From a virus, in IMG/VR virus record IMGVR_UViG_3300018080_000122, positions 51,572 to 115,571 of that record: a stretch of DNA of 64,000 nt. The stretch is one strand, 5' to 3'. Under the pieces are notes generated by a model. That model worked only from the letters and a program-made list of their open reading frames with translations, ran no database searches and was not told the origin of the DNA. This document shows, in pieces, positions 7,855 to 20,508 of the stretch. Numbering within the stretch: position 1 is the first letter of the stretch; the number at the start of each line of letters is the position of its first letter. A program made the translations under genes and the position numbers.

Positions 7855-8085
7855 CTAGTCGTCACCAAGAATATTTTGTAGCTCTTCTTCTGATATGCCC
7901 ATCTTCCTGGCCACCTTTATTATCTGTGACCGGGAAGGGTCTACTCCTGTGCCGTTGGCCGCTGCAGCCACCGCTTTTCGCACTGTAGAAGAGGCTTGGC
8001 ACTTTTTCACTAACCGCACAGCAGTTGCTCTTAGTCTGGCCTTGACCTGATCCCACTCTTTCTTCGTTTCAGGATCGGAAAGCAT
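7855..8085 (-). CDS. Small hypothetical protein
   Basis: A 76-residue protein, mainly helical, ending with a DPSRSQIIKVARKMGISEEEL segment that looks like a small helical bundle. It is the last gene of the - strand transcription unit. AGGAGG lies 7 bases before the ATG. No known function is recognised. Confidence 0.6.
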   Translation of the reverse strand: MLSDPETKKEWDQVKARLRATAVRLVKKCQASSTVRKAVAAAANGTGVDPSRSQIIKVARKMGISEEELQNILGDD

Positions 8086-8094
8086 TCTAGCCTC

Positions 8095-8619
8095 CTATTG
8101 TTCCCCGTCGCTATCGCTAGCAGCAGGGTATACCCCAGAACCACCCACGTCGTGGTGGTCCATACCCCGATCAAACCGCTTGCTGAACTCACTCATCTCA
8201 CGGATCATCTCTCGGAGCTCTTCTCTCCATTGTGTTTGTAAATCGTTTCGGCTGGTCTCAAGTTCCTTCACCCGAGCCTGGAGAGCCGCCGATTCTTTGA
8301 GGAGAGTTTCATGGCAGGTGACTTGCCCAGATTTTACAGTCAGTACTTCGGTAACCAAGGCGTCAATACGCTTCAGCTGCTCACGCTGTTCTTCAGTCTG
8401 AAGATTTTTGATTTTATCTTGGATGTCCTTGAGCTCTTTGGTGAGATCCCCAGTGTCCCTTTTTTTAGATTTGGTTTTAGACGTGCCGTTCTGCCTGCGC
8501 TCTTTGATGAGCGTGGCTATTATATCGATCAGCTTGCCGAAACCGGCCACGCCTCCACTCACAATGGTGAGAATGAGGACCAGCGTCGTCACATCAATTT
8601 CGATTGCAGCAAGCACCAT
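8095..8619 (-). CDS. Membrane-anchored coiled-coil protein (spanin-like candidate)
   Basis: A 174-residue protein with one N-terminal membrane segment (about residues 10-38, TLVLILTIVSGGVAGFGKL) followed by a basic linker and a long heptad-rich region (LTKELKDIQDKIKNLQ through ELREMIREM). The topology of one N-terminal anchor plus a periplasmic coiled coil is that of an inner-membrane spanin (Rz-like), and its partner could be the small lipoprotein at 18084-18410. Against this, the two genes are 9.5 kb apart, whereas spanin genes usually overlap. Alternatives are a holin-associated or virion membrane protein. Confidence 0.6.
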   Translation of the reverse strand: MVLAAIEIDVTTLVLILTIVSGGVAGFGKLIDIIATLIKERRQNGTSKTKSKKRDTGDLTKELKDIQDKIKNLQTEEQREQLKRIDALVTEVLTVKSGQVTCHETLLKESAALQARVKELETSRNDLQTQWREELREMIREMSEFSKRFDRGMDHHDVGGSGVYPAASDSDGEQ

Positions 8620-8651
8620 GTTAGCCTCTCCTCTGACCCTATTAAGCTAAC
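8620..8651 (-). promoter_or_regulatory. Hairpin enclosing a ribosome binding site
   Basis: Read on the - strand, GTTAGC (8651-8646) and GCTAAC (8625-8620) pair around a loop that contains the purine-rich ribosome binding site (AGAGGAGAG) of the coiled-coil gene. The distal arm touches the start codon at 8619. It could modulate initiation; the stem is only 6 bp. Confidence 0.35.
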
Positions 8652-8682
8652 CACCGCAACGTCGTCTCGCCATATGATGTCC

Positions 8683-9360
8683 CTAAATATAACAAAGCTC
8701 AGGGTTACCGTCCACGATCTTAACGTAGGTGAGGCCCTCTGGCCCAAAAGATCCGCTGTTCAAATACATGCGGCCCTTATATTCCCTTACTTCTGGGATA
8801 TGGGTATGTCCTAGTACCACAATGTCGCCCAACAAATTTTCCATGGCCCTATCAGCGATGGGCTCCGCATATTTTTCTTTCCCGTTCATGGCCGCGAAAG
8901 AGTGGCGGACTTTTCGTTGGATTGACGTGCCAGGCCCCATAAAGTAGCAGGCGACCTTGTCCGCAGTCACAGCAACCCACGATGCCATTTTAGACGCCGT
9001 TCCGGAGAACGTGTCGAACTCGTTACCATGAGCTAAGACTATACTTTTTCCTCCGTCACTGTAATTGTAAGGTTGGGCCGCAACACGCATGTTGTTCAAA
9101 CGGCGCATTCCTTTGAACTCCGCGTCGTGATTGCCCGGTATATAAATTACTTCATACGGAAGTACGTCAATCTCTAATAATATATCTTTATTTTGTTCTA
9201 CTATGTCGCAGTAGTCGTAGTGCCAAAGATCGAACACATCTCCAAGAAGGACCAGGCGATCCCACTTGTCCCTATGTATAAGTTTAAACAACTCCTTGTT
9301 GGCCGACCTGAACCTACCTGGTTGGCCAAAGTGTAAATCTGATACTACTAAAGTGCGCAT
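8683..9360 (-). CDS. Calcineurin-like metallophosphoesterase
   Basis: A 225-residue two-metal phosphoesterase. Motifs in order: SDLHFG (D8, H10), LLGDVFDLW, YIPGNHDAE, AHGNEFD and VVLGHTHIPE, which together supply the full metal-ligand set. The overall pattern recalls UDP-2,3-diacylglucosamine hydrolase-type (LpxH-like) members, but the substrate cannot be assigned from sequence. The ATG at 9360 has GAGGGG upstream; a GTG at 9378 would extend it with no better signal. It overlaps the end of the peptidase gene by 13 bp. In a phage it could act on nucleotides, nucleic acid ends or envelope lipids. Confidence 0.88.
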   Translation of the reverse strand: MRTLVVSDLHFGQPGRFRSANKELFKLIHRDKWDRLVLLGDVFDLWHYDYCDIVEQNKDILLEIDVLPYEVIYIPGNHDAEFKGMRRLNNMRVAAQPYNYSDGGKSIVLAHGNEFDTFSGTASKMASWVAVTADKVACYFMGPGTSIQRKVRHSFAAMNGKEKYAEPIADRAMENLLGDIVVLGHTHIPEVREYKGRMYLNSGSFGPEGLTYVKIVDGNPELCYI

Positions 9361-9896
9361 GGTGTGGCCCCCTCGCACAGCCTGAGCATCTTTAAATCTT
9401 CTGGAGACGTCAGGTCCGGCAAAAGATTTTTCACAGGCTCAAACGAATCGTTGCGAAGCATCCCATCCAAAAGATGAAGGTAACGTGCGACGACCTCGCT
9501 ACAAAACATCTTGTCTGGCGTGTCAGGCACGCACATTCGCGCCAGACGCTTGTTGACCTTCTCCAGCACCAGGTAAGCACAGAAGCGGCCGATGCCCGCG
9601 AAGTCGTACTCCGCCCCCAGCTCCCGAAAGATGATGTAGAGAGCTTTGGGACCCATTACATCGTCTCTAATTCGGAAGGCGTACATGAGTTTGTTGTGGT
9701 TGTCCCATCTTTCCGCCGCGACCAGGTTCACTCCAGATCCAGTGGATTCAAGAACCCACCGGTAGCCTGTGGAGAATGGGCCGCCTATATGACTGAAGTG
9801 GATGGAGGCGTGGGAAACATCGGAATTGGTGATCTTACGAATGGCCCATGAGATCGGACTGCACGACTTTGGCCGGGATAGTACTATAGCAATCAT
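9348..9896 (-). CDS. Permuted papain-like hydrolase (NlpC/P60, YiiX-type)
   Basis: A 182-residue protein with the circularly permuted NlpC/P60 arrangement: the histidine comes first (VSHASIHF, H29 with H33 nearby), then a conserved acidic/aromatic strand (WVLES, E50), then GAEYDFAG, and finally the nucleophile in MFCSEVV (C132). This family includes peptidases, amidases and acyl-transferring enzymes of the cell envelope. There is no signal peptide, so it would need virion delivery or a holin. Cell-wall or lipid cleavage is a reasonable inference, not shown. It lies downstream of the fibre genes and overlaps the phosphoesterase. Confidence 0.75.
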   Translation of the reverse strand: MIAIVLSRPKSCSPISWAIRKITNSDVSHASIHFSHIGGPFSTGYRWVLESTGSGVNLVAAERWDNHNKLMYAFRIRDDVMGPKALYIIFRELGAEYDFAGIGRFCAYLVLEKVNKRLARMCVPDTPDKMFCSEVVARYLHLLDGMLRNDSFEPVKNLLPDLTSPEDLKMLRLCEGATPCAL

Positions 9897-16431: not shown

Positions 16432-17253
16432 CTACGCCTCCAGTCCCATTGTAAGGACAACTGCGCTGGCAGGGTTGACTACGAGGCCAGGTGAAGCAGG
16501 TAAGACTACACCAGAACTGGCTTCTAACCACATGGACTTGAGGAAGGCTGAGCCATACATAGGCGTTGTGGCAAACTCCAGATCGACGCTGTTAGTTATA
16601 ATAGCCAGCCAGTAGTACCCCGACACAGGGGTAGTGTACGATGCTCCCAAAGCGACAATTTTGTCTGCGTTGTCGTCCCCAGCCGCTGTGGTAAATGAGC
16701 CAGTCTCGGCCACTTTGGTGTTTGGCAGCCCGTTTGGATTTGAGGGCACAGATTGCGTGTAGATGCCCATATTCACTGAGCGAGCAGGGTTTCCTCCGCT
16801 TGCCTGGTAATAGGCCATCCTGTCAATTACCTTGCCTTTATGTACATATATTCTGGAGTATTGGACTTCGTTAGCGTCGATGGAACCAACAAGAGTGTAG
16901 TCTTCTCTAGTCCCCGTGAAGTACTCTCCAGGCGTCCCGAAGTCAGATCCACTATCCGTATTTGTAGTTTCAAACCAAAACGCATCGCCGGTAGCCGCAC
17001 CGAGGCAAGCAAAAGCCCTTTTATCCGTGGTGTTTATCCATCGGCTGCCTACAGCGTAGCCTGCAACGTCATCATCATTAACGGTAGGATCGGTCGTCGC
17101 AGTGAAATTGTGCTTTAGGGACGCAGCGGCAGCGATCTGAGCCGCAGAGACTCCTCCAACGTACGCCACACTGGGATTTGGATAAGTCCCTGCGAGATCG
17201 CCCCCAGCGGGGCCAGATGGCAGCCCATAACCAAAACCATTGGACAAAGTCAT
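16432..17253 (-). CDS. Tail fibre/spike carrier protein with shared C-terminal domain
   Basis: A 273-residue protein. The N terminus LSNGFGYGLPSG resembles the start of the gene at 61749-62357. It is followed by GGDLAGTYPNPSV, a common tail-fibre repeat element, and a WINTTDKRAFACLG segment seen in fibre stems. The C-terminal about 140 residues match the spike C-terminal domain (VSGYYWLAIITN). It lacks the beta helix of its neighbours, so it may be a short version of the same surface protein. AGGAGGG precedes the ATG. Confidence 0.7.
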   Translation of the reverse strand: MTLSNGFGYGLPSGPAGGDLAGTYPNPSVAYVGGVSAAQIAAAASLKHNFTATTDPTVNDDDVAGYAVGSRWINTTDKRAFACLGAATGDAFWFETTNTDSGSDFGTPGEYFTGTREDYTLVGSIDANEVQYSRIYVHKGKVIDRMAYYQASGGNPARSVNMGIYTQSVPSNPNGLPNTKVAETGSFTTAAGDDNADKIVALGASYTTPVSGYYWLAIITNSVDLEFATTPMYGSAFLKSMWLEASSGVVLPASPGLVVNPASAVVLTMGLEA

Positions 17254-17289: not shown

Positions 17290-17610
17290 CTATTTATTGA
17301 TTGCGACTTCTCCTTTGGAGGCGCCGCAAACCAACTTGATGAGACCAGGACCCGCGTAGCGCACGATCCTCTTGGCAATGGGATCTAAGATCCAGTCCCA
17401 TCCTGTCTTGGTGACATCGATGACCCGGCAGAGAAGATCTATAACCATCTCCTCTTTCTCTTGGCTGGAAAGTCCCTTCACAAGCTCAATGGATTCCATG
17501 CCAATTTTGATCACAGTGGCCAAGTCGCCCCACTGAAAACCGTCGGCAAATTCTTCTTTGACTTTTTCGGCCTGGTTCTCAAGCCATTCCTGCTTAATTT
17601 CTGATGTCAC
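17290..17610 (-). CDS. Small helical protein, possibly membrane-active
   Basis: A 106-residue protein with amphipathic helices (LATVIKIGMESIELVKGL, WDWILDPIAKRIVRYAGPGLIKLV). The GTG start has GGAGG 8 bases upstream. Similar small helical proteins occur near phage lysis genes, and its place next to two lipoprotein genes makes a holin-like or lysis accessory role possible. No definite membrane segment is seen, and the call is tentative. Confidence 0.55.
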   Translation of the reverse strand: MTSEIKQEWLENQAEKVKEEFADGFQWGDLATVIKIGMESIELVKGLSSQEKEEMVIDLLCRVIDVTKTGWDWILDPIAKRIVRYAGPGLIKLVCGASKGEVAINK

Positions 17611-17673: not shown

Positions 17674-18084
17674 TCAACCCGAAGCCCCTCCAACATTAGT
17701 CAAACCGTTTACTGCGCCTTTAACGGCACCCTGAACCAGCACAGCGACCAGTTCCTTGGCCACCATGCAGAAGCCCGTTCCAAGTGCCATCAGAGCCCTC
17801 TTGATAATCGCGGCAACCTCTGCGCTTGCTGCGACCTGCTCCTGAACCAACACGTGCTCCATGGTCAGCTCCACATGGTTCGCGCGGTCAGCCCAGTACT
17901 CTACATCTTTGGCCTCGTCAGACGCTATGGCCATACCTTTGTACTTCAGATACTTGGTGGCCAGGCTGTCCAAGTAAGGCAGCCGATTAGCGTCTTCAAC
18001 CATATCAGCCAATTCTCTAGCAGCCTGTTGTCCAGTGTTCTGCGCCAGATCTTTGATCTTGCTGAAAATTTCGTCTGTGCTCAT
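17674..18084 (-). CDS. Small helical protein with hydrophobic C terminus
   Basis: A 136-residue protein, helical throughout. The C-terminal region from about 88 (IIKRALMALGTGFCMVAKELVA) is hydrophobic, with a Gly/Ala-rich end (GAVKGAVNG). Its ATG overlaps the stop of the upstream lipoprotein gene (TAATG), indicating translational coupling. Position within the lipoprotein group suggests a membrane-associated or lysis-related role, unproven. Confidence 0.55.
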   Translation of the reverse strand: MSTDEIFSKIKDLAQNTGQQAARELADMVEDANRLPYLDSLATKYLKYKGMAIASDEAKDVEYWADRANHVELTMEHVLVQEQVAASAEVAAIIKRALMALGTGFCMVAKELVAVLVQGAVKGAVNGLTNVGGASG

Positions 18085-18410
18085 TATTCGTCACCCCGAT
18101 CTTCTACGTGTTCGTCCTTACGTTCCTTGCTAGGATCGAGTGCGACATCCACTGTCTGCTTCAGTTGCGCCCAGTGGGCCTTCCGCTCCTTCACTGCTTC
18201 TTCTTTCTCTTCGGTCCACTCTTCGTCTGTGAGGCCACTGGGTCTGTCGTCTTCCATAAAGGCGTCCGACTCCCAGAACTCCACGAGATCCGGCTCGAAA
18301 GCCTCCAACGACTTCTTGACCTTCTCCATAGAAGGACGAAGATCAGGGCCACCAAAACAACCCACCAGTAAAAGAGAAAGGACCAAAACAACTACTAACC
18401 GTTTACTCAT
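18084..18410 (-). CDS. Lipoprotein, outer-membrane spanin candidate
   Basis: A 108-residue precursor with a classical lipoprotein signal: basic start (MSKRL), hydrophobic core (VVVLVLSLLL) and lipobox LVGC, then a short charged mature domain of about 90 residues. Small size, lipobox and highly charged mature part resemble outer-membrane spanins (Rz1-like), although the usual proline-rich region is weak. It lies immediately downstream of the metalloprotease lipoprotein and is coupled to the following gene. Confidence 0.65.
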   Translation of the reverse strand: MSKRLVVVLVLSLLLVGCFGGPDLRPSMEKVKKSLEAFEPDLVEFWESDAFMEDDRPSGLTDEEWTEEKEEAVKERKAHWAQLKQTVDVALDPSKERKDEHVEDRGDE

Positions 18411-18420
18411 AACCTTGCCC

Positions 18421-19059
18421 CTACTTTAATTCACCTGCGGCCAAATCCGCACGGCAATAACCACATAAATTAAGTCCCCCAACGGGGAACATTATACACC
18501 CGAGAGTGCTACAGTGATGTCCCACTGGATGTTTATGATGCGTCTGCATTTTCAGGTATTTGTCCACCAGGCCCACACAATGAAGCCATTCGTGCACGAT
18601 AGTACATTGGAGTGCCTGAGTGTTATTTCCGTACACCTGCGGAAACACGGCGAAGTCCCTTCGATTCCAGGACTTCCCACCTATAGTCGGGCTATCGGCA
18701 TGCACGCCCAACGCCCACAGCATATAAAATGTGTCCTTGTTTTTCTTGTTTAAGAACACAAATTTTCTGCAATCAAAGATGTCCCAAGTGCCATGACCCT
18801 GTTCTGGAACGCCTTTATCAAGTCTGAACTCCACAACAGTCCCGTACGAGCACGCCGACTGCATAATATTCTTAGCTGCCTGGAGAACGGCTGGTGGAGG
18901 AGGTTCTGGCGTAGTCCAGTCCACTTCAATAACAATGCGTTTGGTAGTTTGATTTGGGCCGTCGACGACCTCAACAGAAGGGCACCCAAACAATAAAACA
19001 AGAATAATGCTACTCAGGCTTAGCTTGAATAGACCCCTCGAACACTTCGTAATCCTCAT
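18421..19059 (-). CDS. Lipoprotein metalloprotease, metzincin-like (HExxHxxGxxD)
   Basis: A 212-residue precursor. Residues 1-26 form a lipoprotein signal with lipobox LFGC (23-26). A proline-rich linker (TTPEPPPPAV) follows. The zinc site is H156-E157-x-x-H160-x-x-G163-x-x-D166, with a candidate Met-turn CIMFP at 188-192 and flanking cysteines (C152, C161, C183, C188, C199, C202). The third ligand being Asp resembles snapalysin-type (M7) metzincins. It should be a lipid-anchored envelope endopeptidase. The ATG at 19059 was chosen for AAGGTG upstream and the signal peptide; a longer frame reaches 19134. It overlaps the gene upstream by 50 bp. Confidence 0.8.
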   Translation of the reverse strand: MRITKCSRGLFKLSLSSIILVLLFGCPSVEVVDGPNQTTKRIVIEVDWTTPEPPPPAVLQAAKNIMQSACSYGTVVEFRLDKGVPEQGHGTWDIFDCRKFVFLNKKNKDTFYMLWALGVHADSPTIGGKSWNRRDFAVFPQVYGNNTQALQCTIVHEWLHCVGLVDKYLKMQTHHKHPVGHHCSTLGCIMFPVGGLNLCGYCRADLAAGELK

Positions 19060-19285
19060 TTGTGACACCTTCTGGAAGTCTGTCTGCCCACGCAGTCTGC
19101 ACGCCGTCCTTCTTCCATGTGTGAGGAGCGTCATAGCAACTTATAACAGGTGAAGGCGTTTCCCCAAAAGCCCGCTCTATCTCGGCTATGGCGTAACTTT
19201 CTCTGGTCGGTTGCCCATCTCCATGCCCCCAAGCAAACTGGACGGTGTTATCAGACATACCGCATGCAAATATTTCTTTAGCCAT
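19010..19285 (-). CDS. Small hypothetical protein
   Basis: A 91-residue acidic protein (EIERAFGETPSP, VTNEDYEVFEGSI). It is placed directly after a fibre gene, with GGGGAG before its ATG and a one-base overlap with the upstream stop. It has the same size and position as the gene at 22352-22591, which also follows a fibre gene. No domain recognised; a fibre chaperone is one possibility. Confidence 0.55.
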   Translation of the reverse strand: MAKEIFACGMSDNTVQFAWGHGDGQPTRESYAIAEIERAFGETPSPVISCYDAPHTWKKDGVQTAWADRLPEGVTNEDYEVFEGSIQAKPE

Positions 19286-20508
19286 TAGACGTACTCCCCC
19301 AAGAGGTTGAAGTTGCAGAAATTGAATGAGCTGCCCGTTTCTCGCAGCTCCAAGTAATCTCCAGCACTTAGGCTTATAGGGCTTGTAAACGCCCCTTGCC
19401 CACGGGGAGTGGTGTACGTAATAGAGTCCGCCAAAATACCGTTGACATACACGCCCATGACTGGAGAACCCCCCGCGCTGTTGGCGTAGTAAGCCCAGTC
19501 TGTAAGCGAGTAATTTGCAGGTACTGGGTGCCTCGTTTCCTGGCTGCTGGCAGCAGCGGCTATTTCACTTGAATTGCCGAACGGGAAGAGGTAGAAGGCC
19601 CCTGTACCCGTATCTCCACCAAAAGTGAAGATCTCGGAATCTTGGCCATAGTCCACCCCAGCCACAAAAACAGTCTCCGCGCTGCTAGCAAACCCTGACG
19701 TAGACCGCAATTCAAAGTAGTCCCCAGAAACCAAAGACTCGCCGCCCCATATGTGCGTGCCATGTTGCTCGCCCGCACGGATCACAAAGCTATGCGCCAG
19801 GGCTCCGTTGACATAAACGCCGATTGTACCCCCATCCCCTAGTTCTCTGCGCCACGATACCGAATTAAGAGTGCCCGATCCTGGCACGGGGTGATCCGCG
19901 AAACCTGCGCCAGCAGTGCCCCCAGAATTGGCCCGCATCGTCAAAGAACCAGTGAACGTCCTACCGAAAACGTAAGTGGCTGCCCGACGGTAAGTGCTCG
20001 CCATCAAAATTATGTTGGTGCTTGTGGCAGCGATATTAGCTACTCTACCAACCAAGCTGCTCTCATCAACAGTGGTGAACACGTCTCCCAGCAAGTTACC
20101 ACTGCCGTCGTTGGTGAACTCTTGCTCAAAGGCCGCAGAGCCCTTCAAAGCACCAGCTTGCCAGACGTCAGAGGCGGACCCACGGATCGCCACTTTACGT
20201 AGTTCTCCTGGATGGCCCCCAGGAAAAACGTAACCAGCAGTGGAAAAACGCATCCGTGTGTCGTAGTGGAATCTGTAGAACATGTGAGAGATAGTCGTCT
20301 CCAGGTCTGGGGGGTCAATGGTGCCCCATCCGGAAGGCTGACTATAATCCGATATCAATAATTTGTTGTTCCCCGCAGGCGCAGGAATAGCTGCTGGAGT
20401 TGCAGCAGCGCTTGCCCCAACAATCTGGCCACGCTGGGTGAGAACGCTCTTCTTTATCTCGAAGTCGCCTACTGGCAAGCCGTCGACGTGGATGTCGCCA
20501 CCGCTCAT
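19285..20508 (-). CDS. Tail fibre with two jelly-roll-like repeat modules
   Basis: A 407-residue protein. Two copies of the same module are visible, each marked by an HPVP entry, an internal VYVNG strand and an exit GDYFELRS or GDYLELRE (modules in the region of residues 190-270 and 320-400). The same modules occur in the gene at 21184-22350. The N terminus (MSGGDIHVDGLPVGDF) is probably the attachment part. Likely a receptor-binding or decorating fibre. AGGAG precedes the ATG. Confidence 0.7.
   Translation of the reverse strand: MSGGDIHVDGLPVGDFEIKKSVLTQRGQIVGASAAATPAAIPAPAGNNKLLISDYSQPSGWGTIDPPDLETTISHMFYRFHYDTRMRFSTAGYVFPGGHPGELRKVAIRGSASDVWQAGALKGSAAFEQEFTNDGSGNLLGDVFTTVDESSLVGRVANIAATSTNIILMASTYRRAATYVFGRTFTGSLTMRANSGGTAGAGFADHPVPGSGTLNSVSWRRELGDGGTIGVYVNGALAHSFVIRAGEQHGTHIWGGESLVSGDYFELRSTSGFASSAETVFVAGVDYGQDSEIFTFGGDTGTGAFYLFPFGNSSEIAAAASSQETRHPVPANYSLTDWAYYANSAGGSPVMGVYVNGILADSITYTTPRGQGAFTSPISLSAGDYLELRETGSSFNFCNFNLLGEYV

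Follow-up and report, generated by a model that had tools for sequence, protein, structure and literature searches.

Archaemetzincins are defined by the motif HEXXHXXGXXHCX4CXMX17CXXC, and a Cys4 zinc finger lies beneath their active site; an Asp at G+3 is in a canonical position for a third zinc ligand (PMC3427221). Proteolysis by AfAmzA was not detected in vitro (PMC3427221). In the igalysins (M64), HExxH and an Asp ligand are combined with CxM, CxxC, and a structural zinc (PMC12237041). In Listeria, the metzincin Mtz is encoded by a prophage downstream of the holin-lysin genes, and together with the neighbouring lipoprotein Tim it increases phage lysis (PMC8235301); this pair was the only relevant case in the phage metalloprotease literature.

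The window, i.e., the whole stretch of DNA that was analysed, comprises the final 64 kb of a virus record of 115,571 bases. The record was assigned to a contractile-tailed phage because it encodes portal, S78 prohead protease, major head protein, sheath, tube, gp25, and baseplate J proteins. Searching with the head protein revealed a relative of 75% identity on an 11 kb fragment holding head and sheath genes only. The sheath yielded just one eCIS-like sheath fragment, and no relative was found with the baseplate.

A lipoprotein archaemetzincin-like metalloprotease of 212 aa is predicted at 18421-19059 on the minus strand. The sequence-only reading had given these coordinates correctly; the gene lies on the minus strand, and the plus strand reading is full of stops. 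The frame is open to 19134, and an alternative start at this position would add 25 codons. This extension had a poor coding score, and the ATG at 19059 was therefore taken as the better-fitting start. The codon score of the true frame was far above those of the other five frames. It was about 0 per codon versus +0.2 to +0.4 for most neighbouring genes, which hints at recent acquisition or at a composition that is atypical for this phage. An antisense frame at 17854-18429 (plus strand) was rejected as a gene because of its negative coding score. An HMM of the archaemetzincin family was applied to the window, which has 589 open frames. The protease frame ranked first (E 3.5e-6) and the next distinct frame reached only E 0.012, confirming that the observation is more than chance.

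The N-terminus of the protein, MRITKCSRGLFKLSLSSIILVLLFGC (18982-19059, minus strand), was recognized by eye as a lipoprotein-type signal peptide with n-region, hydrophobic core, and lipobox Cys (hydropathy 1.98). The lipobox LFGC ends this convincing signal peptide; lipidation is predicted at Cys26, and the next residue is Pro. The zinc-helix sequence HEWLHCVGLVD at 18562-18594 (minus strand) contains the predicted catalytic zinc motif HExxHxxGxxD (H156, E157, H160, G163, D166). It is followed by a His-rich insertion, KYLKMQTHHKHPVGH, at 18517-18561 (minus strand), between D166 and H182. This insertion does not occur in the viral archaemetzincins collected here and is the most unusual part of the protease. 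The C-terminus, HHCSTLGCIM-FPVGGLNL-CGYC, has the layout HHCx4CxMx8CxxC. Within it, H182-C183-x4-C188-x-M190-x8-C199-xx-C202 (18454-18516, minus strand) provides the Met-turn and a predicted Cys4 zinc site. The lipobox, the HExxHxxGxxD motif, and the possible Met-turn (C188-I-M190, CIM) were found as the sequence-only reading had described them; the four-Cys cluster and the His beside C183 had been overlooked. Two residues are candidates for the third zinc ligand: D166 occupies the usual G+3 place, and H182 adjoins C183 as in archaemetzincins.

Searches with the single sequence gave no significant match in Pfam, NCBIfam, PHROGs, or the PDB. The snapalysin profile PF02031 (M7) was not matched at an E limit of 1, no M7 or M6 match exceeded the cut-off, and neither PF07998 (archaemetzincin, M54) nor PF09471 (igalysin, M64) matched. 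An M7 search across a phylum of genomes is uninformative, as its controls likewise remained without a match. No close homologue was found by direct searches of viral contigs, phages, plasmids, and genome contigs. Pattern scans for HEWxHxxGLxD returned one M64-like protein plus noise in IMG/VR and, combined with the Tyr, mostly large proteins of other architectures in GTDB, where no small lipoprotein with the Cys cluster was found. The exact spacing HCx4CxMx8CxxCR yielded only short chance frames in IMG/VR.

When IMG/VR was scanned for the strict archaemetzincin signature, 88 viral contigs with approximately 60 distinct proteins were identified (L147-L234); this set was thus gathered by its motif. 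Complete members have roughly 180-280 aa. By a simple and crude rule applied to automatically picked starts, 53 of 57 proteins had an N-terminal lipobox (10) or another hydrophobic segment (43). The window protein and 52 viral archaemetzincins were combined in alignment A2. Because 49 of its 53 rows matched PF07998 and its profile matched solved archaemetzincins in the PDB at E ~1e-22, the viral set was assigned to M54. H156, E157, H160, and G163 are invariant in the 53 rows, and C199 and C202 are conserved in at least 90%. H182, C183, C188, and M190 are invariant as well, for H182 as aligned in A2, a placement which an aligner favours. PHROGs barely covers these proteins. Two representatives of the viral archaemetzincins, and likewise two Asp-type viral metzincins, had no match in 50,697 GenBank phage records. 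The statement of the sequence-only reading that such a protein is unusual in a phage therefore applies to GenBank phages; it fails for uncultured phages, since lipobox Asp-type metzincins and exported archaemetzincins recur in IMG/VR. In L147, L155, L182, L186, L198, and L199, the archaemetzincin gene repeatedly adjoins the same few small genes, which may form an accessory island conserved within one phage group. A family of lipobox Asp-type metzincins (L010, L013, L033, L040, L041, L058) was noticed on viral contigs of up to 167 kb, with the features YATF..GR..., GLADTY, and a C-terminal IAFCVP. Two bacterial archaemetzincins (L127, L133) have lipoprotein-like N-termini, and lipid-anchored M54 proteins may thus exist in cells, too.

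The exported viral archaemetzincins gave the best profile match to the window protein. Alignment with hhalign against 57 of them reached 96% (E 1.5e-9) in local mode and 97% (E 2e-10, 156 columns) in global mode, these E-values being pairwise and not database values. Random subsets of 14 viral members gave 87-96%, and five bacterial M54 sequences, a small sample, gave 78-84%. The comparisons between families were chosen after the resemblance had been seen by eye. The native local score was 59 versus at most 21 for full shuffles. As a control against motif-only matching, residues 35-146 alone were shuffled. The global score was then 43.5 ± 4.6 (maximum 52.9) versus 56.1 for the native sequence. 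Since none of 60 N-terminal shuffles reached the native score, the similarity extends beyond the motif. In structure prediction, suggested earlier as a check, the model was guided by the archaemetzincin alignment (pLDDT 69.6, pTM 0.66); its best PDB matches in Foldseek were the archaemetzincins 3lmc (TM to target 0.50) and 2x7m (0.68). The single-sequence AlphaFold model had a pLDDT of only 35.5; its order of strands and helices fits a metzincin, and it is unusable alone.

The window protein shares with the archaemetzincins (M54, PF07998; AfAmzA 3zvs/4axq, MkAmzA 2x7m, and 3lmc) the predicted metzincin fold, HExxHxxG, HCx4CxM plus CxxC, and the predicted Cys4 zinc site, in which C183, C188, C199, and C202 align with the Cys residues of the family. 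It differs by the lipoprotein signal peptide and by approximately 16 additional residues that separate HExxHxxGxx from HC. HExxHxxG and HCx4CxM are both present, but not as the contiguous HExxHxxGxxHCx4CxM. The Met and CxxC are separated by 8 residues instead of the 17 in the M54 definition, a spacing that varies from about 10 upwards in the viral M54 set. As these two defining features deviate and Pfam did not match the single sequence, the protein was not filed as an M54 member. The exported viral archaemetzincins are similar in size (180-250 aa), and most of them likewise begin with a lipobox or a membrane segment; they differ in having the strict motif without insertion and another gene neighbourhood. 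Taken together, the alignments and the guided model support a predicted metzincin fold and a distant relationship to archaemetzincins, of which the window protein would be a divergent relative. The former label 'snapalysin-like' had to be replaced. HExxHxxGxxD and a Met-turn are present, but M7 was not matched, and the geometry of the Cys4 site and Met-turn as well as the profiles point to archaemetzincins; the assignment was corrected to archaemetzincin-like. The interpretation of the sequence-only reading is thus partly supported: its view that a phage encodes an exported, lipid-anchored protein of the metzincin type gains support.

The protease gene lies between fibre genes at 16432-17253 and 19285-20508, in a row of such genes that share its strand. 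The end of the upstream gene (19010-19285, minus strand, 91 aa) overlaps the protease start by approximately 50 nt. A second lipoprotein with lipobox LVGC (18084-18410, minus strand, 108 aa), a possible partner, starts 10 nt past the protease stop. It is followed by a helical protein of 136 aa with a hydrophobic C-terminal segment (17674-18084, minus strand) and a helical protein of 106 aa with a GTG start (17290-17610, minus strand). The neighbours named by the sequence-only reading were thus found, all on the same strand. Its proposal of a lysis module is still a hypothesis: the second lipoprotein and the helical proteins are present, but no endolysin, holin, or spanin was recognized next to the protease gene. 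The match of the second lipoprotein to spanins (E 0.22) was at chance level, and no Amidase_2 was found in the record. At 7855-9896 (minus strand), a possible alternative lysis region comprises a 174-aa protein with an N-terminal TM segment and a long coiled coil (8095-8619, minus strand), a metallophosphoesterase (8683-9378, minus strand), and a C92 papain-like amidase (9348-9896, minus strand).

In our preferred explanation, which is held tentatively and at slightly less than an even chance, the protein is an exported, lipid-tethered zinc metalloprotease, a divergent relative of the exported phage archaemetzincins, that loosens the host envelope for lysis. The sequence, the features of the signal peptide, and the family resemblance are shown; we infer export, lipidation, activity, and the role in lysis. 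The gene would be expressed late, along with those of the tail fibres, and the protease would pass through Sec and be lipidated at Cys26. Provided that the host is a diderm that uses Lol sorting, it would stay at the outer membrane, on the periplasmic side (+2 is Pro, not Asp). There it would cleave host envelope proteins, the loosened envelope would favour lysis, and virions would be released. On the model of the Mtz-Tim pair of Listeria, likewise an exported metzincin that is associated with phages and has a lipoprotein gene directly after it (PMC8235301), the second lipoprotein may be a partner, a substrate, or a brake. Listeria Mtz differs in being secreted and not itself lipidated and in belonging to a Gram-positive prophage-type locus; it is likened by arrangement. 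By analogy, a late, envelope-anchored role in aid of lysis appears most likely. It is favoured by the late gene cluster, by Mtz-Tim, and by the metzincins of two unrelated phages, which are encoded directly upstream of an amidase endolysin. In each of these (L034:289-1193, L047:612-1909), one open frame comprises a coiled coil, a TM segment, a lipobox (LAGC and LLAC, respectively), and an Asp-type metzincin; an internal start giving a separate lipoprotein is possible. Against it stand the absence of a recognized lysis gene adjacent to the protease and the gene neighbourhoods in 12 viral archaemetzincin contigs, which showed no consistent or obvious lysis cassette. Activity is uncertain because the exact HExxHxxGxxHC motif is interrupted. 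A wider reading is possible but rather doubtful: many uncultured phages would share a class of envelope-anchored archaemetzincins that act late as envelope proteases, in lysis or in receptor destruction, and in the sub-type of the window protein the His-rich insertion would shift or regulate the third zinc ligand, with a lipoprotein partner.

The main rival to the lysis role is an enzyme for receptor destruction or superinfection exclusion. Anchored at the surface or in the periplasm, the protease would cleave the host receptor protein, which would keep released virions from sticking to debris or prevent other phages from adsorbing. Such a role would account for the place of the gene between the two fibre genes, and it is consistent with the predicted lipid anchor and with the position of viral archaemetzincins mostly away from lysis genes. 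However, no precedent was found in the literature, and fibre clusters hold unrelated accessory genes, too; we consider this role unlikely. Quite unlikely is a recently acquired host gene (moron) encoding an inactive protein or one with another envelope function, e.g., a pseudoprotease, that takes part in neither lysis nor exclusion. The codon score near 0 amid clearly positive neighbours, the interrupted motif, and the bacterial M54 proteins with lipoprotein-like N-termini would agree with it, but the catalytic residues, the Met-turn, and all four Cys are kept despite strong divergence, and many phages encode exported archaemetzincins. It is improbable that the protein is an equally exported Asp-type metzincin of a snapalysin/M6-like lineage, with D166 as ligand and an independently gained Cys cluster, and without kinship to archaemetzincins. 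The motif HExxHxxGLxDxY fits exactly, is common in viral lipoproteins, and places the Asp at G+3, a canonical position of the third ligand (PMC3427221). The phage proteins of this type (L034, L047, L014) share the lipobox and this motif with the window protein, but they lack the Cys4 cluster, and the match is confined to the motif (69% local over 24 columns, 6% global, versus 96-97% for the viral archaemetzincins), in addition to the missing M7/M6 match. Igalysins share HExxH, the Asp ligand, CxM, and CxxC; they differ by an extra residue before the Gly and a larger domain, and their profile reached 3%. Maturation of the phage's own fibres or of another virion protein, which only the genomic neighbourhood favours, is very improbable and was rejected as the main role, as the predicted signal peptide and lipid anchor place the protease outside the cytoplasm, where virions assemble.

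Outside the window, at approximately 31.5-34.6 kb of the record, a CRISPR-like array of 21 repeats of 36 nt with spacers of ~35-40 nt (L008:11477-13002, plus strand) is directly followed by a TnpB/Cas12f-like effector of 510 aa with a TNB domain and a zinc ribbon (L008:13045-14577, plus strand). Together, array and effector appear to make up a miniature type V CRISPR system carried by the phage. Approximately eight neighbouring paralogues beginning with MKIRNGFVSNSSSSSF were observed at L008:16719-20000 and L009:203-1570.

The biology of archaemetzincins is poorly understood, and AfAmzA was without activity in the structural study (PMC3427221). Exported archaemetzincins occur in dozens of other uncultured phages, and two representatives found no counterpart among the reference phage records searched. 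Such a group of exported archaemetzincins tethered to the membrane would make the function of this family testable through infection phenotypes. It would also place envelope proteolysis among the routes by which phages may open their hosts, beside the one published case found, in Listeria (PMC8235301).
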